Virus record (IMG/VR): IMGVR_UViG_3300033553_000813
Span: 1-36,175 of that record
Strand: one strand, 5' to 3'
Origin: a virus
Length of the DNA stretch: 36,175 nt
Shown here: one piece after another, positions 414 through 36,175 of the stretch
Layout: each line of letters opens with the position of its first letter
Numbering within the stretch: position 1 is the first letter of the stretch
Notes under the pieces: model-generated
Told to the model about the DNA's origin: nothing
Seen by the model: only the letters and a program-made list of their open reading frames with translations
Database searches by the model: none
Position numbers and translations under genes: made by a program

Positions 414-1088
414 CTACTCCAGTCTTATAACACCAACCACAATGGCCAGACCTGTTATTTCTTCTTCAGGTATATCAAATGGTCGGTAATCCTTATTGTC
501 GCTTATAGCCGTTACATGATTGGGCTTTTCTGATATATCAATACGCTTCACTAATATGCCCTGTTCTTTGGTGGATATCACATGTACCTTATTCCACTGG
601 ATGAAATTACTCTCCTTTATAATCCTACATGCCACAATATCACCACTATTGTACTTTGGGTACATACTACTCCCGGAGACTTCTATCATAAAGTCAACCT
701 TTCTATTTTTAAACTTTGGGATGATATAATAGTCCTTTACATCCTGTTCAGCAATAGCAAACTCACCACTACCAAATCCAGCAACGGCTAATTGACCAAC
801 CAAGGGATAGCCTTTGTAAGCCTTTAATGCAATATAAGGCTCATGGCTGTCTGCCAACATATCCACTTGACTCTTTGGTTGTGCTTTCTTTCCTGTCAAG
901 AGCCAATCCAAATCAATATGTTCACACTTTGAAAACACAAGATCATAATCAATTGAATTGCGCTTAACCCAGTTCGATAAAGTGGACTTATTTATTCCAA
1001 GGAAGTCAGCGAGCTCTTTGTCTGTGGTAAATCTCTTAGACTGCTTAATGCGCTCCAATATTTCCCCTTTATCGTAAAAAGTTTTCAT
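414..1088 (-). CDS. Phage repressor, CI/LexA-type (N-terminal HTH plus S24 peptidase-like domain)
   Basis: The 224-residue protein has an N-terminal helix-turn-helix of the phage CI type (about residues 8-45, with KELADFLGINKSTLSNWV) and a C-terminal S24/LexA-like self-cleavage domain. The expected dyad is visible: Ser141 in SGSSMYP and Lys181 in ILVKRI. A plausible autocleavage bond is Ala103-Gly104 in LAVAGFGSG. The protein should hold the prophage silent by binding the 1081-1130 operators, and RecA-stimulated cleavage would link induction to DNA damage. It is transcribed away from the transposase operon, like Mu c, although Mu c itself has no S24 domain. The first operator repeat overlaps its start, suggesting autoregulation. 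Confidence 0.9.
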   Translation of the reverse strand: MKTFYDKGEILERIKQSKRFTTDKELADFLGINKSTLSNWVKRNSIDYDLVFSKCEHIDLDWLLTGKKAQPKSQVDMLADSHEPYIALKAYKGYPLVGQLAVAGFGSGEFAIAEQDVKDYYIIPKFKNRKVDFMIEVSGSSMYPKYNSGDIVACRIIKESNFIQWNKVHVISTKEQGILVKRIDISEKPNHVTAISDNKDYRPFDIPEEEITGLAIVVGVIRLE

Positions 1089-1414: not shown

Positions 1415-3469
1415 ATGCCTATTTATCACAACAACACACTATCTGTAACCCGTAAGGAACTTGCCCTATGCGGTGTGTCTCCGAGTTACGTTAGCCGAGC
1501 CTTGGCCGGACAGCGTAAGGGGGAGGTATATTGTTGGGAGCACCATAAGCAGGGTAGTCAGGTTTATATCCATTACCAATCTTTGATGCCCAAGTATAAG
1601 GCCTTGGTTAAGGCCGTGCTTTGCGAGGGTATCGAACCCGAGATTTACCTCAGAAAACAAGAGGAACAAAAGGCACAGGACACAATTGAAAACCTGACCG
1701 ATCAAGTTACTGGGCTGGTAACATCCAACCCCGACGAAATCAAACAACTATCCGAAACCAAGCTTTACACCCCCATTGAAGTTCACCAGTTAGCTCGCGC
1801 TGCGGGATGGCTTCGCCTGATTAACCAATTTGACGTTAAAAAAGCCCGAAAGCTTGGTTTTGCAAGTGTTAATGACTTCCGAAGCGAAGTATTTAAACGC
1901 TGTTTAAACGAGCAAACGGCCAAAACGCCGCTTGTGAAATTCAAAAAGGGGCTTATCACAAATGAGAATCGATTTTACCGTAATGCTCTTGACTACCGTA
2001 GGGAGGGTATTAGCGCACTAATACATAAAGGGGTTGGCAATGTTAACCGCGAAAAAGATAAGAAGGATGCCAATGTTCATGCAAAACTTCTAACCCTGGC
2101 ATCAGCCCAAGTAAAGTATTCATGGGAAGATGTTTCGATGATGTATAACAATTGGGCTTTAAAGAACGATAAGCCACAATACACCACATCCACGGTTAAA
2201 CAGTATTTAAACACCCCAAAAATAAAGAAAGTTTGGTATTACGCACGTCATGGAAAGTTGGCTGCAGATAACGATATACAACCGCTTATCAATCGGGAAA
2301 CACCAACGTTCCCTGATGCGCTTTGGTCTATTGACGGTACTACCATGCAGTTGTATTACCGCGACGAAAACAACAAAATAAAGAGCGACCTATACGTTTA
2401 TTTCGTTACCGATGCCAACACCACGGCCATTATAGGCCACTCCATAGCATTTGCCGAAACAGGCGGCATGGTAGAAGATGCTTTGCGCAATGCCATCATA
2501 AAGCACGAGAATAAGCCTTATCAGTTACAATACGATAACTCATCGGCCAACATATCCTTTGCCGTTCAAAACCTCATGACCAACATGAGCCGGGTGCATT
2601 TCCCTTGTGAGCCTTACAAAGGCCGATCAAAGTATGTAGAGAGCATTATTGGCCATTTTCAACAACGGGTATTGCGCAAACAGCCCAATTTTAAGGGAGG
2701 TAACATCACCACCAAAAGCCTTAATTCAAAGGCCAACCCCGAACTATTGGCACACTTTAAAAAGAACCCGGAGTTATTGCCAAATCGAGATGAAGTACTG
2801 GCCGAATTTGAAGCAGCTTTAAAAGAATACAACGAGCGTGGCGAAAAGAGAGACAGTTACGGGCGTTTTGTAGGCCAAGGTAAAATGGAACGTTACACTT
2901 CCATAGAGCATGAAAAGCGCGAAAAGCTTAACTATTTCGACCGCCTTAGCATGTTTATGGTAGAACAACGCTTACCCTACACCTATGGCGTTAACGGTAT
3001 CGAAATGGAGATAAACGGCAACAAACATCACTTCATAGTTCCCGACCCCGATACTGTGGGCGACTTCATATTTGCCAACGAGAACCTGGGCACAAAGTTC
3101 AGGGTGAAAGTTGACAAGTACAAGCCCACTATGATAGCTCTATACAAGGACGGCATATTCATCGACTTTGCTTACAACAAAGAACGCTATGCGGCTTGTG
3201 TGGCCGATTTAAAAGACGGTCAAAAAGCTAAACAGGTCATATTTAAACAAAAGCAATCCGAATGGGGCGAAGATTACTCCCGCCGTGAGCTCGAAAAGCA
3301 AATGATAACACTGGGCGAAATGAAAGCTACCGGAACGGAAGGCTTTGGTTGGTGGGATAGCTCAAAAGACAACACCAACGCGCGCGAATCGGTTTTGGAG
3401 GATGCCAATAATGGCATGGACGACGGACTTACAGAGCGACAACGAAAGATTTTAAACATTGGCAAATAA
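1415..3469 (+). CDS. MuA-like DDE transposase
   Basis: The 684-residue protein, close to Mu A in length (663), would pair the phage ends and carry out strand transfer for integration and replicative transposition. The N-terminal ~70 residues look like a MerR/Mu-type winged DNA-binding domain. The RNase H-fold core carries the triad Asp307 (WSIDGTT), Asp374 (QYDNSS) and Glu409 (KYVESI), with 34 residues between the second and third, as in classical DDE integrases. A beta-rich domain follows (about 500-590). The C-terminus is polar and would be the MuB-contact region by analogy. It is the first large gene after the early promoter and sits directly upstream of the ATPase partner. Confidence 0.93.
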   Translation: MPIYHNNTLSVTRKELALCGVSPSYVSRALAGQRKGEVYCWEHHKQGSQVYIHYQSLMPKYKALVKAVLCEGIEPEIYLRKQEEQKAQDTIENLTDQVTGLVTSNPDEIKQLSETKLYTPIEVHQLARAAGWLRLINQFDVKKARKLGFASVNDFRSEVFKRCLNEQTAKTPLVKFKKGLITNENRFYRNALDYRREGISALIHKGVGNVNREKDKKDANVHAKLLTLASAQVKYSWEDVSMMYNNWALKNDKPQYTTSTVKQYLNTPKIKKVWYYARHGKLAADNDIQPLINRETPTFPDALWSIDGTTMQLYYRDENNKIKSDLYVYFVTDANTTAIIGHSIAFAETGGMVEDALRNAIIKHENKPYQLQYDNSSANISFAVQNLMTNMSRVHFPCEPYKGRSKYVESIIGHFQQRVLRKQPNFKGGNITTKSLNSKANPELLAHFKKNPELLPNRDEVLAEFEAALKEYNERGEKRDSYGRFVGQGKMERYTSIEHEKREKLNYFDRLSMFMVEQRLPYTYGVNGIEMEINGNKHHFIVPDPDTVGDFIFANENLGTKFRVKVDKYKPTMIALYKDGIFIDFAYNKERYAACVADLKDGQKAKQVIFKQKQSEWGEDYSRRELEKQMITLGEMKATGTEGFGWWDSSKDNTNARESVLEDANNGMDDGLTERQRKILNIGK

Positions 3470-3542: not shown

Positions 3543-4478
3543 ATGAAAGATTACTCGTTAGAACAAAAAAAGCAGTTACGCGATGCGATAATTGCCAATC
3601 AGGAGGCTTCGGGCTTATCAGGCAACAAGTTTGCCGTAGAGCGATTGGGCTTTAGCAACGGCTCTAAATTCAGCCACATTAACAACGGATGGGATAAACC
3701 CGGATTGGTAGGTGCAGGTACTTGGGAAATTATCGAAAAGTACATTGAAAAAACCGAGGGTTACACCGGAGTTCCAACCGCCAACCTTAAAAAGGTATGG
3801 GAAACATGCGAGCGTGCCCACGCCCTTAAAAAGCCTATGGCCGTTGTGGGCGAAGGCGGCTACGGCAAAACCTTTTCCCTGGAGAAATACAAGCAGCACA
3901 TTGAGGCCGAAAAGCGTTTTCAGGTTATTTACTTCGATGCTTCCATGGTTAAAACACGTAAGCAGTTTGTAGTTGGCCTAATGACAGAATTAGAATGCTA
4001 CAAGCCCGGTACTATGTCTGCCCAGTTGGCCGAAATGCGCAAATCTATCAATAAGCGCGATATCCTTATTTGCATTGACGAAGTAAGCAGCTTGGAAAGC
4101 CACAACATTACGGTTATTAAGGACGTAATGACCGCCTTTAAAGACCTATGCGGGATAGTGTTTGCCGGAACGCCTTACTTCATCAACAACCTTAACCGGG
4201 GTGCAATACGTGACCGCCACCTATTCAGCGAAACCCGCGACCGCCTGTTTATGCTGCCCGAACAATTGAGCAAACCAACCGAGGAGGAAGCCTTATCCAT
4301 ATTCAAAGCCAACGGCATTACAGCCAAGGATGAGTTAGAGATTGTGATGGGCAGCAAACCCGAATTTAAAGCCCACTCATGGCAAGCAAAGCGCACTTTC
4401 AGAGGCATTAAAGACTGTATCGACATGATTAAGATGTCAAATATCCCATCTATTAACTACAATAATTTACAACTATGA
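3543..4478 (+). CDS. MuB-like AAA+ ATPase, target-DNA selection partner of the transposase
   Basis: The 311-residue protein (Mu B is 312) has an N-terminal HTH-like region (about residues 10-60, NKFAVERLGFSNGSKFSHIN), then a P-loop ATPase domain: Walker A GEGGYGKT at 103-110 and Walker B ILICIDE at 174-180. MuB proteins form ATP-dependent filaments on target DNA, deliver it to the transpososome and give target immunity. The C-terminal domain (about 225-311) is basic in places and would be the MuB-C DNA-binding region. Its stop overlaps the next start (ATGA), indicating translational coupling. Confidence 0.9.
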   Translation: MKDYSLEQKKQLRDAIIANQEASGLSGNKFAVERLGFSNGSKFSHINNGWDKPGLVGAGTWEIIEKYIEKTEGYTGVPTANLKKVWETCERAHALKKPMAVVGEGGYGKTFSLEKYKQHIEAEKRFQVIYFDASMVKTRKQFVVGLMTELECYKPGTMSAQLAEMRKSINKRDILICIDEVSSLESHNITVIKDVMTAFKDLCGIVFAGTPYFINNLNRGAIRDRHLFSETRDRLFMLPEQLSKPTEEEALSIFKANGITAKDELEIVMGSKPEFKAHSWQAKRTFRGIKDCIDMIKMSNIPSINYNNLQL

Positions 4479-4893: not shown

Positions 4894-5547
4894 ATGGAAA
4901 AACAAGTATTGACAGATGAGCAACGCCACCAGCTCGAACATCTTAAAATGTTGGAAGCAAGGGAAAAGTCAATGGTTAAAGAAGACCAAAAAGCCCTAAA
5001 GGAACTCACTGACGAAACCGTAAAAAACGCCTACGTTATCCTGGCTAAAACCAGTGAAGTAATAGCTGAGGCCAAAACGATGGTGTATGGCATGTTTGCC
5101 GATATCATTGAGCTCAAAAAGCAGATTTACAAAACATCGGACGAACAGTATTCGCACACCTTTACTACAAAGGACGGCATGTTGCGCATAATTATCGGCT
5201 TTCATGTGGTCGATAATTTTGAGGATAGCCACACCGCCGGGGTGGATGGTGTAAACAGCTTCCTAAACAGCTTAGGGGTTGACGACAACAGCCGCATGTT
5301 GGTTAAAATGGCCAAAAAGCTATTGAGCCGCGACAACAAAGGAACCCTGAACGCCCGTAAGGTGATGCAACTTATGCAAATGGCCAACGAAAGCGGACAG
5401 GCTCAATTCATCGACAACGTGCAGATTATTATTGATGCCTACAAGCCAATTAAAACCAAGCTGTACATCATAGCCCGTTACCGCAGCGAAAAGGAAAACG
5501 AGTGGAAAGCCCTGCCCCTGGGCATAACCGAAGCCGATATCGTCTAA
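4894..5547 (+). CDS. DUF3164-like early protein
   Basis: The 217-residue protein resembles the DUF3164 family of Mu-like phages: a charged N-terminal helical section, a conserved middle with TKDGMLRIIIGFHVVDNF, and an Asp/Asn-rich C-terminal half that includes DNKGTLNARKVMQL. Family members sit in the early region of transposable phages and their role is not established. I use the ATG at 4894 (ATCATGGAAAAAC) because starting at 4867 would overlap the preceding gene by 23 bases and add nine hydrophobic residues not typical of the family. Confidence 0.75.
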   Translation: MEKQVLTDEQRHQLEHLKMLEAREKSMVKEDQKALKELTDETVKNAYVILAKTSEVIAEAKTMVYGMFADIIELKKQIYKTSDEQYSHTFTTKDGMLRIIIGFHVVDNFEDSHTAGVDGVNSFLNSLGVDDNSRMLVKMAKKLLSRDNKGTLNARKVMQLMQMANESGQAQFIDNVQIIIDAYKPIKTKLYIIARYRSEKENEWKALPLGITEADIV

Positions 5548-5578
5548 TCAATTAATCACCATTTAAACAGTAATAGCA

Positions 5579-5839
5579 ATGATTTATTTAGTAAAAGTAA
5601 CAATCCAGCCAACATCAAGCGAAGACCCACAACTAACCTTTAAAAAGCTTGTAATTGAAGGCGTTTACATACCAGTTGAGGGAAAACGCAAAACCCTAAG
5701 CGTAAAAATTGAAGAGCAATGTAAGGCATTTATCTTAGGCAATTTAAAGAGAGACAGCCCGGAACTGGAGTTTGAGTTTAAACACTTCAATATCCGACGG
5801 TACAACAACCAATTTACCATCAACGACAATTTAAAGTAA
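5579..5839 (+). CDS. Unknown small early protein
   Basis: I do not recognise this 86-residue protein. It alternates hydrophobic and charged residues (MIYLVKVTIQPTS, then LSVKIEEQCKAFI), suggesting a small alpha/beta fold without signal peptide or membrane segment. The start follows a CACCATTTAAACAG element (5557-5570) that recurs before other phage genes. A tRNA-like hairpin follows its stop directly. Confidence 0.55.
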   Translation: MIYLVKVTIQPTSSEDPQLTFKKLVIEGVYIPVEGKRKTLSVKIEEQCKAFILGNLKRDSPELEFEFKHFNIRRYNNQFTINDNLK

Positions 5840-5879
5840 TCCTGAACGGTTCTTGGGCGGTTCGATTCCGCCCACAGGA
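5840..5879 (+). other. Hairpin that mimics a tRNA T-arm plus acceptor stem
   Basis: GGCGG-TTCGATT-CCGCC (5856-5872) has the exact form of a tRNA T-arm: a five-base stem and a seven-base TTCGATT loop. It is extended by one G-C pair and enclosed by an outer pair TCCTG (5840-5844) / CAGGA (5875-5879). There is no anticodon or D-arm, so it is not a full tRNA. It begins one base after a stop codon. Confidence 0.45.
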
Positions 5880-5897
5880 ACAATGCTAAAATAGCAA

Positions 5898-5917
5898 CTA
5901 AACACCATTTAAACATC
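5898..5917. repeat. TTTAAAC-type intergenic repeat pair
   Basis: TAAACACCATTTAAAC just before the 5924 gene is one of a set of paired TTTAAA[C/T] units about 11-12 bases apart. They recur in gene gaps of both strands (5557, 10371, 18177, 25100, 32003, 35184; weaker at 8510). Confidence 0.5.
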
Positions 5918-5923
5918 AATAAA

Positions 5924-6199
5924 ATGGACGAAATATTAGAGGCAATTAAACAAGAACGTATGCTTCAGGATGAAAAGTGGGGCGAACAAAATCACAAACC
6001 TATTGAATGGGTTGCCATTTTAACCGAAGAAGTTGGAGAGGTAAGCAAAGAAGCCTTAGAAAATCATTTTTCAAAGTATTACAAGGATACTAATAAACTA
6101 GCAAATTATCGCAAGGAACTTATACAAGTTGCTGCTGTAGCGATTGCGATGATTGAAAGTTTAGATAGAAACCAACCGCTTTATCAAAAGCTTAAATAG
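5924..6199 (+). CDS. MazG-like nucleotide pyrophosphohydrolase
   Basis: The 91-residue helical protein has WVAILTEEVGEVSKEAL (about residues 29-45) and YRKELIQVAAVAIAMIE (about 63-79). These are the two helices of the MazG/all-alpha NTP-pyrophosphatase fold that carry the metal-binding acidic motifs. The first motif (EEVGE) is intact. The second is ELIQ rather than the usual ExxD, as in many short phage MazG-like proteins. It may hydrolyse non-canonical or regulatory nucleotides, which would affect the nucleotide pool or starvation signalling during phage growth. The substrate cannot be read from the sequence. Confidence 0.75.
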   Translation: MDEILEAIKQERMLQDEKWGEQNHKPIEWVAILTEEVGEVSKEALENHFSKYYKDTNKLANYRKELIQVAAVAIAMIESLDRNQPLYQKLK

Positions 6200-6206
6200 T
6201 ATTTAA

Positions 6207-6908
6207 ATGCCTGAACAAACAAAAACAATAAAGCTACTTGACCTATGCTGTAAAGCGGGTGGTTGTTCTATGGGTTACTATCAAGCCTGTATCGACCTAG
6301 GTTATCAAATTGAGATAACCGGGGTTGATATTGAACCACAACCTAACTACCCTTTTGAGTTTGTTCAGGCCGATGCTGTTGAATTCCTCAAAGAGTACTG
6401 GAGTAACTACACCCACTTACACGCTTCGCCTCCCTGTCAGGAATATAGCGTTGCTACGGCATACCTACGCCAAAAGGGCAAAGTTTATCGGGATAACCTT
6501 ACAGAGCTGCGTGAACTGATGCAAAAATGCGGATTGCCGGGAGTTATTGAGAACGTTCCAAACGCTCCATTGCGTCCTGACATAGTTTTACGTGGCGATA
6601 TGTTCGGTTTAAAAGTACTGCGCAAACGTCACTTTGAATTGGTCAATTGGTGGGCTATGAACCCCATTATGCCGCAAAAGGTTGGTTCTGTTGCCGAGGG
6701 CGATTATGTATCGGTATATGGCAAATGCGGCATCAAGAAATCAGGCAAACGTAAAGCAGCACAGCCAAAGTTTAAGAAGCGAACCATCAAAGAAACATGG
6801 AAATATGCCATGGGAATTGATTGGATGACCAGGGATGAAGAACTAGCAGAGGCAATCCCACCTGAATACACCCGATTTATTGGACGAGAATTATTTAAAA
6901 CCACATAG
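6207..6908 (+). CDS. Phage-type C5 DNA cytosine methyltransferase
   Basis: The 233-residue protein has the SAM-binding start LLDLCCKAGGCSMGYY (residues 10-25), an acidic SAM contact (VDIEP, 40-44), the catalytic motif IV SPPCQEY with Cys77, motif VI VIENVPNAP with Glu115, and an RKRHFE motif VIII-like stretch near 139-144. It is much shorter than bacterial Dcm and has little room for a target-recognition domain, as in the compact phage-encoded cytosine methyltransferases. It lies in the early operon, so it could modify phage DNA before or during replication, probably against restriction. Target sequence unknown. Confidence 0.88.
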   Translation: MPEQTKTIKLLDLCCKAGGCSMGYYQACIDLGYQIEITGVDIEPQPNYPFEFVQADAVEFLKEYWSNYTHLHASPPCQEYSVATAYLRQKGKVYRDNLTELRELMQKCGLPGVIENVPNAPLRPDIVLRGDMFGLKVLRKRHFELVNWWAMNPIMPQKVGSVAEGDYVSVYGKCGIKKSGKRKAAQPKFKKRTIKETWKYAMGIDWMTRDEELAEAIPPEYTRFIGRELFKTT

Positions 6909-7089: not shown

Positions 7090-7605
7090 ATGGCAGCATT
7101 TGACGAAATCCTTTATGAAAGACTCAAGGAAAAGCGGCAGTACTTCCACCAGTTGCTTATTGCGCTGGGCGAAGTCCGCTACAAAGATGTTATTGTGAGC
7201 ACGCTGTTCAGCGTGGAAAGTACCACAGCTTTAAACGAACAGCAGCTCGATACACTAATATCAGAAGCCAAAGCGCGCTTGAACAAAAACCCACGGCCAG
7301 TGAGTTACCAGGACTCAAGCAAAATGCTACGCTTATGGCGAAACAAATGCCTTTTGGTTCTAAACGAGCGGGGCATTGTGGCCACACCAAAGGATTGGAC
7401 AGCCGTTAACGCCGAGCTATCAAAAAAGCAATTCCAATGGGTGTTGAGCCCGGCACAAACACAAAGCGGCCTCGTTAACCGCAAAGGCCTCTATGCTTTC
7501 CGTACGGTTGAGGACTTAAAAAAGCTATTTAAACAGCTTTGTTCCATCCGCGACAACGAAAGAACCCATACCGAAAAATTAAAAGATTTAGCACTTAAAA
7601 ATTAA
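7090..7605 (+). CDS. GemA-like (Mu gp16/DUF1018-type) early protein
   Basis: The 171-residue protein is placed like GemA of Mu-like phages, in the early operon after B. It shows the general pattern: an N-terminal helical segment with HQLLIALGEVRYKDVIV, a helix LNEQQLDTLISEAKARLN, and a C-terminal half with WRNKCLLVLNERGI and conserved tryptophans. Mu GemA has been linked to changes in host DNA supercoiling. Similarity here is moderate and the assignment rests on position as well as pattern. Confidence 0.5.
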   Translation: MAAFDEILYERLKEKRQYFHQLLIALGEVRYKDVIVSTLFSVESTTALNEQQLDTLISEAKARLNKNPRPVSYQDSSKMLRLWRNKCLLVLNERGIVATPKDWTAVNAELSKKQFQWVLSPAQTQSGLVNRKGLYAFRTVEDLKKLFKQLCSIRDNERTHTEKLKDLALKN

Positions 7606-7609
7606 ATAA

Positions 7610-7852
7610 ATGAGCACTTACAGCGAAATAAGCAAACGCATAGGGTGGGAAGGTCATTGCGCCATTCCATCGATAGAAACAGCCACCGACTTAAAAAAAG
7701 CCGTTGTTTCAGACAAAAGCACCAACGGTTTTGAGTTGGTTTTTAAGATACACCGCTTTGCACCAAGCCCAACTAACGAACAAGAGCTTAAAGCAATGAA
7801 CATTATTAACGAGGCCTATTGTGCCGGAATCGTATATTTTAAACTAAGATGA
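7610..7852 (+). CDS. Unknown small early protein
   Basis: I do not recognise this 80-residue protein. It has no membrane segment or signal peptide. It contains one tryptophan and two cysteines (Cys17, Cys71) in a mixed alpha/beta-looking sequence. Its stop region overlaps the start of the next gene (7849), and it starts five bases after the preceding stop, so it belongs to the same transcript. Confidence 0.55.
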   Translation: MSTYSEISKRIGWEGHCAIPSIETATDLKKAVVSDKSTNGFELVFKIHRFAPSPTNEQELKAMNIINEAYCAGIVYFKLR

Positions 7853-8067
7853 TGAACAAGAGAATTCAACGAGCCGTAATTTGCTATAAATGCAAAGGTC
7901 ATGGTGAGGTGATGGTGGAGTATTACAAAAGCCGAAAGGAGCCTCACATAGCCCCCTGCCAAACCTGCGGCGGCACAGGTAGAATGATAAGAGTAGTAAC
8001 TGTTTGCTACGCACCCTTAGAAACTTCTATAACCATTTTAGAACGGGTATGTAAGAATGAAGACTAA
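7849..8067 (+). CDS. Small DnaJ-type zinc-finger protein
   Basis: The 72-residue protein has two CxxCxGxG motifs, CYKCKGHG (residues 12-19) and CQTCGGTG (37-44). Together they can form one zinc site like that of the DnaJ central domain. There is no J-domain. Such stand-alone fingers occur in phage early operons and are thought to bind nucleic acid or protein partners. It overlaps the preceding gene by four bases. The start may be the first or second of two adjacent ATGs. Confidence 0.72.
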   Translation: MMNKRIQRAVICYKCKGHGEVMVEYYKSRKEPHIAPCQTCGGTGRMIRVVTVCYAPLETSITILERVCKNED

Positions 8068-8082
8068 CCTAAATCACCAAAA

Positions 8083-8610
8083 ATGAAGCAATATATATTA
8101 AATCATCCCAAAGGCACGGTGATAGCCACTTACACCAATAACGGGAAACTAAAACGTATTGAAGCTAAAAAAGGATTTTTGGCTGATGCTGCAAAAGCAG
8201 GGCACACCTTTGCCTACACAGAGAGAGAAATTGAGTTGGAGCATTGGGCAATTTATCAGCCCGAAAAGGACGCCTTTTTTATACCTGCACAAAAGGAGTG
8301 GCTTGCATTTTACGCACGTCAAACAGGAGGCTTAAACTATCGGTTTACACCCATCGACGGCAAAGCTTTAAAGGAAATTGGCAAGCACCTCACCTCCATA
8401 ACTGCCAACACAAGCGAGGCATTGGAAGTTTGGAATTTCACTCTAAAACAATGGGACACGCTCGACCCATTTTACAGGCATAAAATGCAGCTCACATTTA
8501 TCAATTCTCAGTTAAACACTATTTTAAACTTAATCAAGAATGGAAAACAAGCTGGCAAAGCAAAAGGCACAAGTGCTGCCGATGATTTACGCAGGGGCTT
8601 CCAACCGTGA
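8083..8610 (+). CDS. Unknown early protein
   Basis: I do not recognise this 175-residue protein. It begins with a short beta-like section (MKQYILNHPKGTVIATYTNN), has several aromatic residues in the middle, and ends in a lysine/glycine-rich tail (KNGKQAGKAKG). No catalytic motif is evident. Its last 71 bases overlap the start of the following gene in another frame, a long overlap for this operon. Confidence 0.55.
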   Translation: MKQYILNHPKGTVIATYTNNGKLKRIEAKKGFLADAAKAGHTFAYTEREIELEHWAIYQPEKDAFFIPAQKEWLAFYARQTGGLNYRFTPIDGKALKEIGKHLTSITANTSEALEVWNFTLKQWDTLDPFYRHKMQLTFINSQLNTILNLIKNGKQAGKAKGTSAADDLRRGFQP

Positions 8611-9058
8611 GCTGGTTAAAGCCTTTGTAAAGCTCACCCCCGAAAAGGTGCTTGGTGGTGGCTTTCCAAGCATGGCGAAGCTCAAAAAACAGGAAGGCGA
8701 AAAGAAGTTAAGCGAAGCCCTGGCCATTATCATTATTGAAACATCCGTTGCCTTTGGCGAAGCAATGAGACAGGACATGGCACTGGATTTAGCCACCGAA
8801 ATACTCACCGATTACTATTACCTCACGCTCGAAGATTGTTTCCTAGTTCTGAACCGCCTAAAGCGTACCAAGGTATTTAAGCTAACCATTAACGTAGTGC
8901 TAACCGCCTTTGAAAGCTACGACAGCGAACGGATAAAAATGATTGACGACAACAACTACAGCGAGCACCTGAGCCACAAAGAGCCCAGAGGAAACCCCAC
9001 CAACGTGGATGCGCTGTTGAGACTGATTAAATTAGACAATAGAAAAGCTAAAAAGTAA
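8540..9058 (+). CDS. Unknown early protein upstream of the RecA-like ATPase
   Basis: I cannot assign this 172-residue protein. It is largely helical, with a hydrophobic helix LSEALAIIIIETSVAFGEA (about residues 57-75) flanked by charges, a section LTLEDCFLVLNRLKRTKV, and a basic C-terminus. The layout of helical domain plus basic tail, and its place just before a RecA/RadA-like ATPase, would suit a replication or DNA-binding accessory factor. That is inference only. Confidence 0.55.
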   Translation: MENKLAKQKAQVLPMIYAGASNRELVKAFVKLTPEKVLGGGFPSMAKLKKQEGEKKLSEALAIIIIETSVAFGEAMRQDMALDLATEILTDYYYLTLEDCFLVLNRLKRTKVFKLTINVVLTAFESYDSERIKMIDDNNYSEHLSHKEPRGNPTNVDALLRLIKLDNRKAKK

Positions 9059-9091
9059 GTAACCACAGTAATAACAATCAAATTAATTAGT

Positions 9092-9682
9092 ATGAGAACA
9101 TGGAGTCCAAACGATATTGCCGAAAGAAACATTGAGGTTCACCCATTCACAGGAGATTGGAATAAGCTACTGGGCGAACCTGATATTCGTTTCTCAACCC
9201 TAATCCGGGGCAAAGCCAAAAGCGGCAAAAGTACCTATTGCATGAAGTTTGCCCAGGAGTGCAGCCAATGGGGGCGCGTATTGTACGTATCAGCTGAGGA
9301 GCGCATCAACAGCAAAACCCTACAACAGCGCATTGCAAGCTGTAACGTAACTTCGCCAAAGGTACGCTTTGCGCACACCAAGGATTTAGATGCCATTGAT
9401 AAACTGGTAAAAAACGGCGGCTATCGCTTTGTAATTATCGACAGCGTGCAGCACATTAAAATGGATTACGACAAGTTTGAGGCTATGCGCCAAAGTTACA
9501 AACGCCGCAAACTATCGTGGCATTTGGTAATGCAAATGGGTGTGTCCATAGTAAAATGGGAACATGAAGTGGACGTACTGGTAGAAATTAAAGACGGCTT
9601 TGCTTATGCCCAAGGCCGCTACGGAAAAGCCGACCGCATGCAGGTTCTCACACACCAAAAAGCACAAGGAAGTTTATTTTAA
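9092..9682 (+). CDS. RecA/RadA-like P-loop ATPase
   Basis: The 196-residue protein has Walker A GKAKSGKST (from residue 40), a RadA/DnaB-like element VLYVSAEE (63-70) and Walker B YRFVIIDS with Asp117. The length fits a single RecA-fold core with no extra domains. Such proteins act in recombination, or load or resemble replicative helicases. Here it is the last gene of the early operon, before a strong terminator, and probably works in phage replication. The C-terminus (HQKAQGSLF) is short. The start follows the AGTAATAACAATCA leader at 9067-9080. Confidence 0.8.
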   Translation: MRTWSPNDIAERNIEVHPFTGDWNKLLGEPDIRFSTLIRGKAKSGKSTYCMKFAQECSQWGRVLYVSAEERINSKTLQQRIASCNVTSPKVRFAHTKDLDAIDKLVKNGGYRFVIIDSVQHIKMDYDKFEAMRQSYKRRKLSWHLVMQMGVSIVKWEHEVDVLVEIKDGFAYAQGRYGKADRMQVLTHQKAQGSLF

Positions 9683-9706
9683 ACCTTTTCGATAATCCTA
9701 CCGTAT

Positions 9707-9738
9707 AAAAGCCTATTGGATTATCCAATAGGCTTTTT
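9707..9738 (+). terminator. Strong intrinsic terminator ending the early operon
   Basis: A perfect 14-base stem (9707-9720 with 9724-9737) around a three-base loop is followed by a T-run (9734-9738). It comes 25 bases after the stop of the RecA-like gene. Confidence 0.85.
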
Positions 9739-9745
9739 ACATTTG
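9716..9745 (+). promoter_or_regulatory. Promoter overlapping the terminator hairpin
   Basis: TTG at 9716-9718, a 19-base spacer and TACATTTG at 9738-9745 match the Bacteroidota consensus. The -33 box lies in the ascending arm of the terminator and the -7 box begins at the last T of the run. It would drive the exported-protein gene at 9769. Confidence 0.6.
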
Positions 9746-9768
9746 TATAAATCATAAATTTAAACACC

Positions 9769-10371
9769 ATGAGATTTGTTTTATTTACAATCCTAAGCAT
9801 GATTGCATGCACAGCGGAATCACAGGCCGTTTACGACAGCCTTACCAATGTACCTCCCACAAAAATAAGTTGTTTGTATGGTCAAACTGCAACCATTGTT
9901 GAGCTTAACGAGCTCTATCCATCCATGGAGTGGGCAAATAAACTAACCAACACCTCAATAATTAATAAGCAATACAGCATTGTTAAGGCCGAGAACGATA
10001 AGAGTCGCTCACAAGTATGGGTAAGCTTAGCCTCCAAAACAGATACCATTTATTACCGTTTAACCTCTACCAACATGGAGCGGCCACCGTTTTTAGTGCA
10101 GGGCTTTTACGAAAAGCAAAAGGAGTTATACCTGGACCAAAGTCTAAAGCTTAAAATTGACTACGACTACACCGAAACCAAATCGGGCAAAGTAAAGACC
10201 TTTACAACCGCCGATAACTTTACTTGCACCCAACTATCAATAATCAACAATACCGGGGAACTAGTACCCTCATACATATTGAGCACCCCCAACGGCGAAA
10301 CCATTGCCGTGCCACTTAAAGGTTTTGAAACCACCGCAACCAATACCATTGATAGGTTTACTATTTTGTAA
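9769..10371 (+). CDS. Exported protein of unknown function (lysogenic-conversion candidate)
   Basis: The 200-residue protein opens with a signal peptide (MRFVLFTILSMIACTAESQA). Cleavage is likely after residue 20; a weak lipobox-like MIAC (Cys14) makes a lipoprotein possible. The mature part looks beta-rich, with threonine- and tyrosine-containing strands (DTIYYRLTSTN, LKLKIDYDYTET). I recognise no domain. It is a single-gene unit with its own promoter and terminators on both sides. It lies between the early operon and the leftward genes, so it may be expressed from the silent prophage and alter the host surface or periplasm. Confidence 0.7.
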   Translation: MRFVLFTILSMIACTAESQAVYDSLTNVPPTKISCLYGQTATIVELNELYPSMEWANKLTNTSIINKQYSIVKAENDKSRSQVWVSLASKTDTIYYRLTSTNMERPPFLVQGFYEKQKELYLDQSLKLKIDYDYTETKSGKVKTFTTADNFTCTQLSIINNTGELVPSYILSTPNGETIAVPLKGFETTATNTIDRFTIL

Positions 10372-10390
10372 TTTAAATAACATTTAAATG
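10371..10390. repeat. TTTAAAT intergenic repeat pair
   Basis: ATTTAAATAACATTTAAATG directly after a stop codon and before a terminator is a member of the recurrent TTTAAA-pair set. Confidence 0.5.
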
Positions 10391-10391
10391 T

Positions 10392-10423
10392 AAAAAGCCC
10401 ATTGTTAATCCAATGGGCTTTTT
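10392..10423 (+). terminator. Intrinsic terminator after the first exported protein
   Basis: A 13-base stem (10392-10404 with 10411-10423) around a six-base loop ends in a T-run. The arms (AAAAAGCCCATTG) resemble those of the 9707 terminator (AAAAGCCTATTGG), suggesting a duplicated cassette boundary. Confidence 0.85.
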
Positions 10424-10430
10424 ACATTTG
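10402..10430 (+). promoter_or_regulatory. Promoter overlapping the second terminator
   Basis: TTG (10402-10404), an 18-base spacer and TACATTTG (10423-10430) repeat the terminator-promoter overlap seen at 9716-9745. It would drive the T9SS protein gene at 10465. Confidence 0.6.
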
Positions 10431-10464
10431 TAATAATTACAAGACAAACTAAACTAAGTAAATT

Positions 10465-11244
10465 ATGAAATTAGTATTATCAATTATTACAATGTTATGC
10501 TGTGCATCCATTATAAATGCACAAGTAGAATGGGCTGCAAGTCATACCGATGTGCCTACCAACGACAAAGTGACTAATGCTTTTGGTATGTGCGAGACCT
10601 CCAATGGAGTAAAACAAATTAGCATTTATACGGATAGTCAGGATAAGTGGTATGTTGATGTAATGCACATTGTTCAGGGCAATAAATTTACAATTGACAA
10701 AACCAGTGAATTAATTATTTCAGAAGCTGATTGGGCTATACAAAGCGACTATGTTGCGCTTGGGGTCTATAACGTTTGCCATAACTTAATAGTAAAAAAC
10801 AAAATCGTTTTTGAATTAGTTTTGGAAGACCCAACCCCCGAACCAAATCACACAAAGTATTGGTGCTACATGTTTGATGAAGACGGCACTCTTTTAAATG
10901 TAAGCTTTGGCAAAGAAGGTAAAATCGTAGGCAACTACATGACCCATGAAACTTGCCAACCTTATGATATTACTCAGCGCATTTGGGCTATTTTAAAATT
11001 TGATACAAACAACACCTCGAGTACGAGTGCAATCAATTTTCCGAACAATAGCGTATTCCCAAACCCTGCAAGCCAACAATTAAATATTAACCAACCAGGG
11101 GAGGTAATTGAGGTTTATAACATGCAAGGTCATTTGATTGAGCAAATACCTTCACAAAGTGCCACTGTTAATGTCAGCAATTATCCCAAAGGACATTATC
11201 TAATAAAAATAGATGATACAACGCTAAAGTTTATTAAAGAATAA
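10465..11244 (+). CDS. Secreted protein with a type IX secretion (T9SS) C-terminal sorting domain
   Basis: The 259-residue protein has a Sec signal peptide (residues 1-19, ending IINA, cut before QVEW), a central region of unknown fold (about 20-185), and a type A T9SS sorting domain at about 196-259. Its landmarks are VFPNPASQQLNI, VIEVYNMQGHLIEQ, a YPKGHYLIKI turn and a C-terminal KFIKE. T9SS substrates cross the outer membrane and are released or anchored at the surface; the system is confined to Bacteroidota. Four cysteines in the central part may form disulfides. It is its own transcription unit inside phage DNA, so it looks like lysogenic-conversion cargo that uses host secretion machinery. 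Substrate or activity unknown. Confidence 0.85.
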   Translation: MKLVLSIITMLCCASIINAQVEWAASHTDVPTNDKVTNAFGMCETSNGVKQISIYTDSQDKWYVDVMHIVQGNKFTIDKTSELIISEADWAIQSDYVALGVYNVCHNLIVKNKIVFELVLEDPTPEPNHTKYWCYMFDEDGTLLNVSFGKEGKIVGNYMTHETCQPYDITQRIWAILKFDTNNTSSTSAINFPNNSVFPNPASQQLNINQPGEVIEVYNMQGHLIEQIPSQSATVNVSNYPKGHYLIKIDDTTLKFIKE

Positions 11245-11245
11245 G

Positions 11246-11272
11246 AAAAGGCAGCCAAGAGGCTGCCTTTTT
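11246..11272. terminator. Bidirectional terminator between convergent genes
   Basis: An 11-base stem (11246-11256 with 11261-11271) around AAGA is flanked by an A-run and a T-run. It serves the T9SS gene and the leftward small gene ending at 11276. Confidence 0.85.
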
Positions 11273-11275
11273 CAA

Positions 11276-11473
11276 TTACCAAACTTCCAATGCAGACACC
11301 TGTAAATTACTAATGTCTTTAGGGTTAAGACCTTTTTGCCTTTTAATTTCAGAAAATGCACTTTCAATAACAAGGTCGTGCCTTGGAGCGTTCGTTTTGA
11401 AGTCAACGTTAATCTCTCGTTTTTCACTATCTACAAAGGTAGCTCTGTAGTTCTTAAATTCTAGTCCACTCAT
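11276..11473 (-). CDS. Unknown small protein
   Basis: I do not recognise this 65-residue leftward protein. It is charged, soluble and begins MSGLEFKNYRATFVD, with a middle segment KTNAPRHDLVIESAFSEIKR that could form one amphipathic helix. It is the last gene of the leftward set, downstream of the adenine methyltransferase, and ends at a shared terminator. Confidence 0.55.
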   Translation of the reverse strand: MSGLEFKNYRATFVDSEKREINVDFKTNAPRHDLVIESAFSEIKRQKGLNPKDISNLQVSALEVW

Positions 11474-11537
11474 TTCTCTTTATTTTAATAGTTTATACTG
11501 TTTTAATAATGTAGTTCAATATAAGCATAAAAATGCA

Positions 11538-12419
11538 TCAGCAAACCGTTGATTTTTCAAACTCAACCATTCCGCTTGCTATGCTCACATATTGCGGCTT
11601 GTAAAGCATGATATCCCTGTAGGTTGAGGTGTGGTTGACGGTAACATTCATCTCCTCTTTTATAGACCCAGCAAAAGGGTTATTTGCCTCTAGGTTCAGC
11701 TCCAGCCAATCACATAACTCCAGTATGGATGATTTATTACTCGTAAAATAGATATACGAATTATCTTTGAGCACATTGAGCACGTCCAAATAATCGGATA
11801 AACGCCAATAGTTCTTGTATGTGCCAACTTCGGTCGATAGGTAAGGCGGGTCAACAAAGAATACCACGTTATCCACATCCTTGTATTTGTGGAATAGCTC
11901 TTTGTAATCCTGACTTACTATATGCAAGCCATCAAGGTATCCATTGACTTCGTAATCTGATTGCCGGACAACGTTATACATTGTTGACTTTTCAAGCTCC
12001 TCAATGTTGAGGGCGTACTTCATGCTGAAAAGCAATGATGAGCTTAGCGTAATGTAATCCACATAGCCTTTTTGTTCCTCTACTTTGATGTAGTCGATAA
12101 TCTTCCATTTGATGGCATCCGGTATCTTCTTATCCTTTGGGCATCCCACTACCAGCGTTCTGATATGCGCTATCATGCGGTTGGTTTTATCCACGTGCAA
12201 TAGCCGGGTGTGGTAATCATCAAAGTCGTTGTACACCACTTGCGCATCTTTGCGGATGCTTTTTGTGGTGTGCGACAATAGACCACTGCCGCCGAAAAGG
12301 TCAATAAATACCTTTGTGTTTTCAAACTGGTTTAAAGCCACTTTAAACTGTTTTAAAAAGCGCCTTTTTTGCCCCATAAATGGCAAAGGCGCACTTGTGT
12401 AAGTTTTAGTTGTTTTCAT
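11538..12419 (-). CDS. DNA adenine methyltransferase, D12 class
   Basis: The 293-residue protein shows the D12 (Dam-like) N6-adenine methyltransferase motifs: a SAM-binding N-terminal PLPFMGQKRRF (residues 11-21), motif I VFIDLFGGSGLLS (37-49) and catalytic motif IV VDPPY (189-193). It would methylate adenines in a short target, protecting phage DNA from restriction or affecting gene control, as Mu's mom modification does by other chemistry. The frame is open upstream to 12518, but that extension would be read through the long hairpin. I therefore use the ATG at 12419 (MKTTKTYTS), which places the motifs at the usual distance from the N-terminus. Confidence 0.88.
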   Translation of the reverse strand: MKTTKTYTSAPLPFMGQKRRFLKQFKVALNQFENTKVFIDLFGGSGLLSHTTKSIRKDAQVVYNDFDDYHTRLLHVDKTNRMIAHIRTLVVGCPKDKKIPDAIKWKIIDYIKVEEQKGYVDYITLSSSLLFSMKYALNIEELEKSTMYNVVRQSDYEVNGYLDGLHIVSQDYKELFHKYKDVDNVVFFVDPPYLSTEVGTYKNYWRLSDYLDVLNVLKDNSYIYFTSNKSSILELCDWLELNLEANNPFAGSIKEEMNVTVNHTSTYRDIMLYKPQYVSIASGMVEFEKSTVC

Positions 12420-12433
12420 GTGTGTTAGTTTTA

Positions 12434-12441
12434 TATATTTG
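12434..12441 (+). promoter_or_regulatory. Possible rightward promoter into the structured element
   Basis: TATATTTG at 12434-12441 matches the Bacteroidota -7 box. A TTG lies 21 bases upstream (12410-12412), within but at the long end of the spacing range. It would transcribe the multi-stem element starting at 12446, antisense to the leftward genes. Confidence 0.35.
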
Positions 12442-12445
12442 TAAT

Positions 12446-12575
12446 CTCTCTCACTTAAAAATAAAAAGGTGCATACACACCGACCGATGGCATTGCCTCC
12501 GGCGTGGTGTGTATGCACCTTTGTGTATTGAGAAGGTGAGAGAGCTCAATACGAGTCGGGGGTACTTTTACCCCT
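12446..12575. ncRNA. Multi-stem structured element (terminator and/or small RNA)
   Basis: This gene-free stretch is dense in complementary arms. A perfect 17-base inverted repeat lies at 12465-12481 / 12506-12522. An outer pair CTCTCTCAC (12446-12454) / GTGAGAGAG (12536-12544) encloses it. Next is a hairpin GTATTGAG (12525-12532) / CTCAATAC (12545-12552) whose loop contains the outer arm, so a pseudoknot or switch is possible. A final GGGGTA/TACCCC hairpin lies at about 12560-12575. Read leftward, the long hairpin is followed by a T-rich run and can terminate the tail operon. Read rightward, a TATATTTG box precedes it. ncRNA status is inferred. Confidence 0.5.
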
Positions 12576-12922: not shown

Positions 12923-13406
12923 CCCTAAAGGCTTTGAAAAGGTCGAAACTCTCAAATGAGTATTGAAAGTTGATTGTTTTATTTGGCACGCTGGTATTCC
13001 AATTTTCAATAACGGCATCTAATAACATCAATCCTTCATCTGTCCAGTGGGTGCAGCAACAAGGAATTAGCTTAACTTGATTCGAGGGTACACTTACATC
13101 TGTACCCTCTACAGTTATCGTTTGGCTTTGCAATACGACATCAAAAATAAGCTCAGGAAACGTTTGGTACACAAACCCGGCATAATGTGCGATATTTGGT
13201 ACAAGGTCTAACGGGATAAGGAAATACTTGTATAGTAATGCGTCACGAAGTCTCCACTCTCCAGTAATAATGTCTTTTTGGTAATTTGCAATGTCAAACC
13301 CTGTAAACGGCTCGCTTCCATCCAATATAGTATCTCCTATGTAATACCCATATTCAATAACATTACCAATGTTATCTATCTTGTATTTAAAATTATTCAT
13401 AATCAT
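12900..13406 (-). CDS. Unknown protein downstream of the tail-fibre gene
   Basis: I do not recognise this 168-residue protein. It is rich in Tyr, Phe, Asp and Ile, with IGDTILDGSEPFTGFDIANYQ near the N-terminus and an unusual CCC triplet (VKLIPCCCTHW, about residues 113-123) that could bind a metal. It overlaps the fibre gene by four bases (ATGA). That location is typical of a fibre assembly protein or a fibre-tip component. Base composition is AT-rich like the fibre gene, suggesting the two travelled together. Confidence 0.55.
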   Translation of the reverse strand: MIMNNFKYKIDNIGNVIEYGYYIGDTILDGSEPFTGFDIANYQKDIITGEWRLRDALLYKYFLIPLDLVPNIAHYAGFVYQTFPELIFDVVLQSQTITVEGTDVSVPSNQVKLIPCCCTHWTDEGLMLLDAVIENWNTSVPNKTINFQYSFESFDLFKAFRDEQIQVS

Positions 13407-14782
13407 ACAATTAATTGATTATTAACAGCTGATAGTGGTATTGCGCCTGTGAAATCATAGTATCCGAAATCTGCATTTGTTTCAGCTTTGTCAAATATTA
13501 ACATTCGAGTAGATAGTACCTTTGCTGAATTTGCAGAAAACGCTAAATAAATACTTTGTGAATTAGATTCAAGCAAGTTTAAAATGTAATTGTTTGGTGA
13601 AGCTAATCCCTTATCTGTAGCTCTAATCTTAGTATATGCGCTACCCCAGTCTACTAAAGCATAGTTATTTATGTAAGTCATAAATGCAGTTGTTGATCTA
13701 TAATATCCCTTTATTTCGGAGCATGAAAAAACGCCAATAGTTCCATAATTGACTACTGCAGAAAATGACCCTGAGAGATTAATAAAATTTAACTTTCCAA
13801 AAGTATCACCAGTACATATCGTATTATTAGTATCGTGCTTATATCCCCAAACTCCACCGCTATTTGGAGGGTTTTTATAATTTTTAGTTGCGCTATTTAT
13901 TAAATCCAAATCTCCAATATGTGAAAACCATTGTTTTTCTGGAATGAATTGAAATTGATTTCTACCAGTATTTGATATAAAAGAACTTGCAAATTGACTA
14001 TACCCTAAATTTGTACCGATAAGCGTGTTCAAATTAAATAATGTCACAGTCCATCCGGCAGGTCCCGACCCACTTGAAATATAAAGATATTCATTTATAT
14101 AGTCATATAAAATATTAGAAGGAGAACTATAAGTAGACCCCACGGATGCAATTACAGTATAAGAATCTAAAGTTGTTTCAGCCATATTATATACCAAATC
14201 GGTTGATATGATAATAAAAGAGGCGTATAAAGAGTATGCCATGCCGAATGTTCCACCACATGCGAATATCTTTTCTACCCCATTACTTTTAACAAATTGC
14301 AAGGCTGTATATTTCGCACTATTTGGCAGTGTAGGGAGTACAATAGTCGCTATTTTAGGGTCGACTGTCCAAACGCCAGCCCCTACATAATTAGATGGCT
14401 TAAGTAGAGCGCAATCGTATTTCCATACTTCATTATTATTCATTAACACATATAAATACTGCCCTGAATAAATAGAAAATACTGGCACACTTATACTAAA
14501 TGTCTTATCTACGTTCCTTCTAGTTTTGAGGGTTAATTCTGCGATTAATCCGCCTGTTGTTTTTGTTGGTATAATCGAATAACTATTATTTTTTATTATA
14601 GCGTATGGTAATGTTGCTGCAATTCCGTTAATCGTATAACTAGATATATTAGTTTTTTCATCAGCATATATCTCCCCATCATCTTGCGCTGTAAAAGACC
14701 AAGCCCCAGAATCAGAAGCCTCCCAATTGAAAGTAAAATTGTTATTTCTACTCTTATGTACTATTTTCTGAACGTTATTCAT
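13403..14782 (-). CDS. Tail fibre / receptor-binding protein candidate
   Basis: The 459-residue protein consists mostly of short beta strands rich in Asn, Ser, Thr and Tyr, with repeated strand-turn patterns (EKIFACGGTFGMAYSLYASF, NEYLYISSGSG, GDTFGKLNFINLSGSF) that suggest a beta-propeller or fibre-like fold. It has no signal peptide or membrane segment. It lies downstream of the fibre-base genes and upstream of a small possible chaperone, so it is the best candidate for the host-recognition tip. The coding sequence looks clearly more AT-rich than the baseplate genes, a sign of separate origin. The exact family is not recognised. Confidence 0.6.
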   Translation of the reverse strand: MNNVQKIVHKSRNNNFTFNWEASDSGAWSFTAQDDGEIYADEKTNISSYTINGIAATLPYAIIKNNSYSIIPTKTTGGLIAELTLKTRRNVDKTFSISVPVFSIYSGQYLYVLMNNNEVWKYDCALLKPSNYVGAGVWTVDPKIATIVLPTLPNSAKYTALQFVKSNGVEKIFACGGTFGMAYSLYASFIIISTDLVYNMAETTLDSYTVIASVGSTYSSPSNILYDYINEYLYISSGSGPAGWTVTLFNLNTLIGTNLGYSQFASSFISNTGRNQFQFIPEKQWFSHIGDLDLINSATKNYKNPPNSGGVWGYKHDTNNTICTGDTFGKLNFINLSGSFSAVVNYGTIGVFSCSEIKGYYRSTTAFMTYINNYALVDWGSAYTKIRATDKGLASPNNYILNLLESNSQSIYLAFSANSAKVLSTRMLIFDKAETNADFGYYDFTGAIPLSAVNNQLIV

Positions 14783-19154: not shown

Positions 19155-19730
19155 CTATTTTCCAACAACCTTCATGATGGCATCAAAATGAAGATTGGCA
19201 ATAATATCCCGCCCCTTATCCGACATAATAAAACGGCAATCCGTTTCGGTATCCATAAAAAGGTTTTCGGTGAGTACGGCAGGGCAATGCGTGTTTTTAA
19301 GGATGTAAAAAGCGGCCTCTTTATCGCTGTCACCATCTGTAAAATCCCTTCGCATATTAAATTGAGGCAGGTGTTTTTTTGCGCTTTGCATAAAGTGTTC
19401 AGCAATGGCATCGCTCCGGGTTTGGCCTTTGGATGTAAATACCTCCCATCCTGTGCCGCCGCCTGCATTAGCATGTATGGACACTAAAAAACTATCAGGA
19501 TTTGAACGGTAATAGTCGTTGATACGCTTAACCCGCTCGCTTAACGAAACGTCCCAACCTTCGGGAACAATCAAAACATATTTAACCCCTTTGGCTTTTA
19601 AAAGCTTTGCCAAACGCGCTGCTATGGCACGGTTAAACTCCCACTCAAAAAGCTGCGAACCATCGCTCCATACAGGACTGCGTTTGCCCATTGTTTCCCT
19701 ACCGTGCCCGTTGTCAATAATTACTCTCAT
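19155..19730 (-). CDS. N-acetylmuramoyl-L-alanine amidase (Amidase_3), endolysin
   Basis: The 191-residue protein is a single Amidase_3 domain. Zinc ligands are visible: His9 in IIDNGHG, Glu29 in LFEWEFN and His86 in LVSIHAN; catalytic Glu155 is in VLTENLF. It cleaves the amide bond between muramic acid and the first alanine of the peptide stem. There is no signal peptide, so it needs a holin-type route, consistent with the membrane gene downstream. Its start shares one base with the stop of the gp25-like gene. Confidence 0.9.
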   Translation of the reverse strand: MRVIIDNGHGRETMGKRSPVWSDGSQLFEWEFNRAIAARLAKLLKAKGVKYVLIVPEGWDVSLSERVKRINDYYRSNPDSFLVSIHANAGGGTGWEVFTSKGQTRSDAIAEHFMQSAKKHLPQFNMRRDFTDGDSDKEAAFYILKNTHCPAVLTENLFMDTETDCRFIMSDKGRDIIANLHFDAIMKVVGK

Positions 19731-35757: not shown

Positions 35758-35878
35758 TGGTAGTAAATAACGTGGCCAGAAATTGCACCTGAATCTTTAG
35801 CACAAGAGCCAAACTCTTTAGGAATGCTAACGTCATACTGATTATACCACCACGTTGAATTTCATTAGAACGTTCGCT
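35758..35878. other. Gene-free gap between convergent genes, with inverted repeats
   Basis: AACGTGG (35769-35775) pairs with CCACGTT (35850-35856), and AAGAG/CTCTT form a small hairpin inside; ACCTGAA (35787-35793) also pairs with TTCAGGT (35878-35884). No T-run is seen. Both strands also have short open frames that read like protein (leftward STWWYNQYDVSIPKEFGSCA and on) but without a start of useful length, so it may be a gene remnant. Confidence 0.35.
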
Positions 35879-36175
35879 TCAGGTCGGTAGGTTATCAATC
35901 TTTTTCTGCAATTCTGAAATTCCCTGCAAGTATTCAGCTTTCAAAATTTTTGGATTATTACGGTCGTTCCAACGCTCGGCAATTTTAACCTTTGAAATAT
36001 CCCAATCGCAGTTATTAATCTTAACCTCGTTGTTGCAATCTTTACATTTGCCCCACGCTACATTAAATGTGGTGTAACCACAATCATCAATTTCAACATT
36101 CTCACTACCACATTTAACACACGGTAGTATTTCAATCCTCTTAGTAATCGTTTGTTTTTCCTCTATGTGTGCCAT
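35879..36175 (-). CDS. Lar-like restriction-alleviation zinc protein
   Basis: The 98-residue protein has two cysteine pairs, CVKCGSENVEI (residues 19-29) and CKDCNNEV (about 44-51), followed by KIAERWNDR. This is the pattern of the Lar restriction-alleviation family (CPFCG...CxxCG...A...WN.R). Lar of the Rac prophage eases type I restriction of incoming DNA. A C-terminal helix (LKAEYLQGISELQKKIDNL) is extra. The start is at the last base of the window, so its upstream region cannot be seen. It would complement the two methyltransferases as an anti-restriction function. Confidence 0.65.
   Translation of the reverse strand: MAHIEEKQTITKRIEILPCVKCGSENVEIDDCGYTTFNVAWGKCKDCNNEVKINNCDWDISKVKIAERWNDRNNPKILKAEYLQGISELQKKIDNLPT

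Follow-up and report, generated by a model that had tools for sequence, protein, structure and literature searches.

A putative lysogenic-conversion cassette with a type IX secretion cargo in a Mu-like phage of Bacteroidota

Why should a phage carry a gene whose product bears the sorting signal of a bacterial secretion system? The type IX secretion system (T9SS) is confined to the Bacteroidetes superphylum, and the gene at 10465-11244 of the window (the whole stretch of DNA analysed, 36,175 bases) appears to encode a cargo protein of this system. The reading favoured here is that the gene is a moron, that is, a lysogenic-conversion cassette, and that bacteria which carry the phage probably release a protein encoded by it or show it on their surface. 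To our knowledge, few cases of lysogenic conversion have been worked out in Bacteroidota, and this would be a concrete one. Should lysogens express and secrete the product, phages would have in the T9SS a means of changing their hosts' surface or surroundings, and would be an added source of T9SS cargo diversity.

Organization and kinship of the phage genome

Gene organization and repressor indicate that the phage is temperate and transposable (Mu-like), the MuA and MuB transposition genes and a repressor all being present in the window. The principal genes are:

414..1088, minus strand: CI-type repressor with an S24 peptidase domain, evidence for lysogeny
1415..3469, plus strand: MuA-like transposase
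3543-4478: MuB-like gene, following the transposase
9092..9682, plus strand: phage ATPase (family match, phrog_6891), the last gene of the early operon
9769..10371, plus strand: second exported protein (the neighbour), 200 aa, cleaved probably between AES and QAV (open reading frame; homologues in the same slot of three relatives)
10465..11244, plus strand: cargo gene, 259 aa (open reading frame call)
11276..11473, minus strand: open reading frame of 65 aa with no assigned function, convergent with the cargo gene
11538..12518, minus strand: D12-class adenine DNA methyltransferase, the far border of the slot in most relatives
19155..19730, minus strand: Amidase_3 endolysin, in the late operon

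Sheath, tape measure and baseplate proteins are encoded by a minus-strand tail operon; the head module, which includes terminase and portal, occupies the plus strand up to 35,757. The cargo gene lies in the middle of the genome, where the early operon ends, and faces the late operon; transposase and repressor lie on one side, and methyltransferase, tail, terminase and portal on the other. These phage genes, and flanks that are orthologous in related phages, bear out an earlier note on this DNA that placed the gene within phage rather than host DNA. The label 'prophage' used there is owed to the CI-type repressor and MuA/MuB, which are also the grounds for lysogeny; the record itself (IMG/VR virus record IMGVR_UViG_3300033553_000813, of which the window is the whole) is a free-standing virus contig. 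The host is placed in Bacteroidota at the level of the phylum, and its possession of a T9SS is presumed.

The best matches among named isolates are Winogradskyella phage Peternella_1 and other Winoviridae, to which the window phage appears to be distantly related. It shares with Peternella_1 the Mu-like layout, TerL (47% identity), sheath (48%) and homologous portal, baseplate and repressor proteins, but the MuA proteins are only 26% identical, the late modules have other orientations, and a T9SS domain is found nowhere in the Peternella_1 genome, against one in the window phage. A MuA search of 395 Bacteroidota genomes returned one distant match.

Some minor features of the genome may be recorded here. 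For a small phage it has two DNA methyltransferase genes (6207-6908, plus strand, and the D12-class gene listed above). The most AT-rich gene (13403-14782, minus strand; GC 0.33, GC3 0.24) adjoins the tail genes and is without family match, apart from a weak one to Imm33. At the right end, a gene that runs off the record (35879-36175, minus strand) weakly matches a Lar-family restriction alleviation protein, and is possibly either host DNA or a terminal phage gene. An Rfam match to a tRNA at 35768-35856 was not confirmed by ARAGORN, and a library of defence systems gave zero matches in the window.

The cargo protein and its sorting signals

The protein can be divided into three parts:

residues 1-19: putative signal peptide
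residues about 20-196: passenger
residues 197-256: T9SS type A C-terminal sorting domain (CTD); profile match to residues 197-256 of 259, the last 63 residues of the protein being encoded at 11053..11241, plus strand

The earlier note had proposed a Sec signal and a type A CTD, the latter to be checked with profiles. The CTD is upheld, scoring 46.7 bits against Pfam PF18962 (cut-off 27) and 43.1 bits against TIGR04183 (cut-off 23), both curated thresholds; the Sec signal was read by eye only, and is consistent with the Q-rule, according to which a Gln follows the signal-peptidase cut in Bacteroidetes (PMC5837995). The N-terminus, MKLVLSIITMLCCASIINA followed by QVEW, has the form of a Sec/SPI signal, ending in INA with Gln at +1, and thus reads as a putative Sec signal peptide.

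The CTD contains the motifs FPNPA, YNMQG and PKGHYLIKI and a terminal LKFIKE. An alignment with 20 chromosomal CTDs of a single Flavobacteriales MAG (which has 58 matches) shows that it keeps the invariant PNP, the two glycines, GxY and a Lys close to the C-terminus. Searched in all six frames, the entire record yields one T9SS CTD, that of the cargo gene. Compatibility of CTDs between species is not guaranteed (PMC11285876), and the phage CTD should therefore suit its own host.

The passenger has about 177 residues, four of them Cys. No homologue was detected in IMG/VR, phage records, GTDB contigs or the 395 Bacteroidota genomes; matches of the cargo protein to two GTDB contigs (L006, L007) involve the CTD only, and two weak passenger matches in the 395 genomes, to PrmA-like methyltransferases, were dismissed as chance. 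A similarity to MuA (27% over 92 aa) exceeds 200 shuffles, yet was picked post hoc among many comparisons; with a profile-comparison probability of 4%, kinship was rejected. The single-sequence structure model of the cargo is unusable (pLDDT 37).

The hairpin and promoter-like elements

The cargo gene and its neighbour are each preceded by a copy of a 52-nt direct repeat (9706-9757 and 10391-10442, 75% identical), which agrees with the earlier suggestion that both genes share one unit design. Three elements can be distinguished:

9706..9757, plus strand: hairpin and promoter-like element, copy 1; 15-bp stem at 9707-9737, TTG at 9716-9718, -7 box TACATTTG at 9738-9745
10386..10442, plus strand: hairpin and promoter-like element, copy 2; perfect 19-bp stem at 10386-10429, TTG at 10402-10404, -7 box TACATTTG at 10423-10430
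11246..11271, either strand: hairpin with a T run, downstream of the cargo gene and resembling a terminator in either direction (z -5.5)

The two upstream hairpins have energies of -20.9 (copy 1, neighbour) and -27.1 kcal/mol (copy 2, cargo), with z about -7.4 each, and the 3' arm of each leads into TACATTTG. This octamer fits TAnnTTTG, the -7 consensus of the Bacteroidota housekeeping sigma factor, for which the -33 element is ill-defined in flavobacteria (PMC7366714). In both copies a TTG is found 18-19 nt upstream of the box, and the distance from box to start codon is 24 nt for the neighbour and 35 nt for the cargo gene. Spaced TTG/TAnnTTTG sites are over-represented between genes, 5 of 15 falling within the intergenic 6.8% of the record where about 1 is expected, and two of these five directly precede the two exported genes. 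A scan for sigma-70 and terminator consensus gave hits no commoner than in shuffles, with a model of E. coli-type promoters. The design suggests that a terminator, which would insulate from the early operon, is joined to a promoter for the start of the cassette, and the claim that the gene has a promoter and terminators of its own stands in the form of these predicted elements, one before it and one hairpin after it.

The orthologue of the neighbour in a related phage (L005) has a recognisably homologous element upstream. An exact search of IMG/VR for the core of the element gave two unrelated chance matches only. A duplication of the 5' coding end of the cargo gene from the neighbour, suggested by a weak resemblance of the two proteins in their first 38 residues, was rejected: the DNA match past the 52-nt element is out of register, and is equalled by 87 of 2000 shuffles.

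The slot in related phages and the role of its cargo

The seven nearest related phages were gathered by MuA identity (roughly 60-74%). In these the slot lies between the last early gene and the gene for the methyltransferase, and it is a habitual place for exported proteins, judging by the predicted products. The neighbour family occupies this one slot in four transposable phages: the window (9769-10371), L005 (9742-10344; 68% identity), L008 (9387-9971; 48%) and L002 (10408-11052; 33%). In L003 and L009 the slot holds exported proteins of other kinds, which have a Q-rule cleavage motif, as do the cargo, the neighbour and the slot proteins of L002 and L005, and in L004 and L010 there are putative membrane proteins in the slot region. 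The predicted model of the neighbour is good (pLDDT 82), but its fold has no confident match, only weak ones to SH3-like barrels. A distant chromosomal relative (L046, 307 aa) is present in a Bacteroidota genome. The exported proteins of this common slot are uncharacterised and offer themselves as candidates for superinfection exclusion.

In L005 and L002 a membrane-protein gene lies directly downstream of the neighbour homologue (10363-10983 and 11069-11680, respectively). The two products are homologous-looking and membrane-anchored, and with the exported protein they are a possible two-gene exclusion system. In the window the alignment breaks soon after the stop codon of the neighbour, and the second copy of the hairpin-promoter element and the cargo gene are found there instead. 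This replacement invites the view that the cargo acts in the periplasm together with the neighbour, for instance in exclusion or envelope protection, with a CTD-like domain unused for T9SS export. We consider this very improbable: the CTD matches are strong and specific, the two genes have separate promoter-like elements, and the window lacks a homologue of the membrane protein.

No T9SS domain is present in any of the seven close relatives, nor in eight more distant Bacteroidota phages, two of them from P. gingivalis. As far as sampled, the T9SS cargo appears to be a private addition of this phage, and the gene may be a recent and transient acquisition. Its GC content is 0.36 against a gene mean of 0.42 (-1.8 sd); low GC is frequent in newly acquired genes. 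Such a distribution and composition would also be expected if a bacterial T9SS gene had been picked up by chance, with no benefit to phage or lysogen. That explanation is unlikely, since the frame is intact over 259 codons with both sorting signals, the promoter-like element resembles the one that the phage has next to it, and not a foreign one, and the slot is repeatedly occupied by exported proteins.

The moron reading, by comparison, accounts for a gene that lies between operons inside a phage genome, in a slot of variable content, is absent from close relatives and has a promoter and terminator as sequence elements. We give it a probability of about 70%. Counted in its favour are the CTD above two cut-offs, the motifs shared with host CTDs, the Q-rule motifs, the duplicated hairpin-promoter element, the intergenic excess of promoter-like sites, the low GC of the gene, the signs of lysogeny and the encoding of lysis elsewhere. 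Counted against it are a passenger without homologue, the lack of a CTD in the 7 + 8 other phages, the variable compatibility of CTDs (PMC11285876) and the ill-defined -33 element (PMC7366714).

In a lysogen, the host housekeeping sigma factor would read the cargo gene from TACATTTG, while the hairpin would insulate it from the early operon. Sec would export the product, with signal peptidase cutting before Gln20, and the host T9SS would recognise the CTD and bring the passenger out, onto the cell surface or into the medium. The altered surface might then block superinfecting phages, or change adhesion or competition. We infer the whole of this route, from transcription in the lysogen through both export steps to the surface effect, from sequence. 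A changed cell surface (superinfection exclusion, adhesion or competition) is the most likely function, and is the least certain part of the reading. An effect on later phages is ranked likeliest because the slot holds exported and membrane proteins and because lysis is encoded away from it, as the Amidase_3 endolysin in the late operon indicates. A broader idea, put forward tentatively, is that transposable Bacteroidota phages reserve the end of the early operon for surface modification, as a slot in which exported proteins are exchangeable and a terminator-promoter cassette can be duplicated, and that here it is plugged into the T9SS, giving a T9SS-specific lysogenic conversion or superinfection exclusion.

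Lysogenic conversion by a T9SS cargo, as the earlier note proposed it, is partly supported: the cargo gene, the temperate phage, the moron-like position, the promoter- and terminator-like elements and the exported neighbour of like design all stand. The general idea is not new (PMC7468147; PMC6949934). Phage-encoded T9SS cargo is already published; the new points are that the phage is temperate and Mu-like and that the terminator-promoter cassette is duplicated. Cryophage (Bellas et al. 2020), a Bacteroidetes phage, likewise encodes proteins that bear T9SS type A sorting domains; the proposal is that they use the host T9SS, possibly for superinfection exclusion or competition. It differs in being a 76-kb circular phage, not described as transposable, whose cargos are a PA14 protein, a GH39 and an endoglucanase, and it is not known to have a moron cassette (PMC7468147). 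Prophages of Porphyromonas gingivalis are also temperate Bacteroidota phages with Q-rule Sec-exported proteins, which have no assigned function and are proposed to modify the envelope, but they were reported in a tRNA-pro-inserting family (Nixviridae), and the T9SS is unmentioned in the main text (PMC10367356). Phage morons in general are, like this one, single AT-rich genes with their own promoter and terminator between phage operons; the difference is the type IX export signal of the product.

Two other precedents suggest a different role, in which the cargo would be a virion or infection-stage adhesin or enzyme, made late and helping particles or debris to meet T9SS-bearing cells. The crAss-BACON phages (2019) also have ORFs carrying T9SS sorting domains, near head genes, with BACON repeats and in another phage lineage (PMC6949934). 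A survey of IMG/VR by a consensus CTD query, of low sensitivity (0 of 21 aligned CTDs contain any of the six search words), found one phage, L034 (IMGVR_UViG_3300030104_000135), unrelated to that of the window; its 922-aa T9SS type A protein (7362-10130) has a signal peptide and is encoded between portal and capsid genes. A virion role is nevertheless quite unlikely for the window cargo: the gene is part of neither the head nor the tail operon, runs on the strand opposite to the latter and follows a host-type promoter-like element of its own, and a Sec signal peptide is unusual in virion proteins. Near its T9SS gene, L034 has a further ORF (5514-6485) for a collagen-repeat, tail-fibre-like protein.
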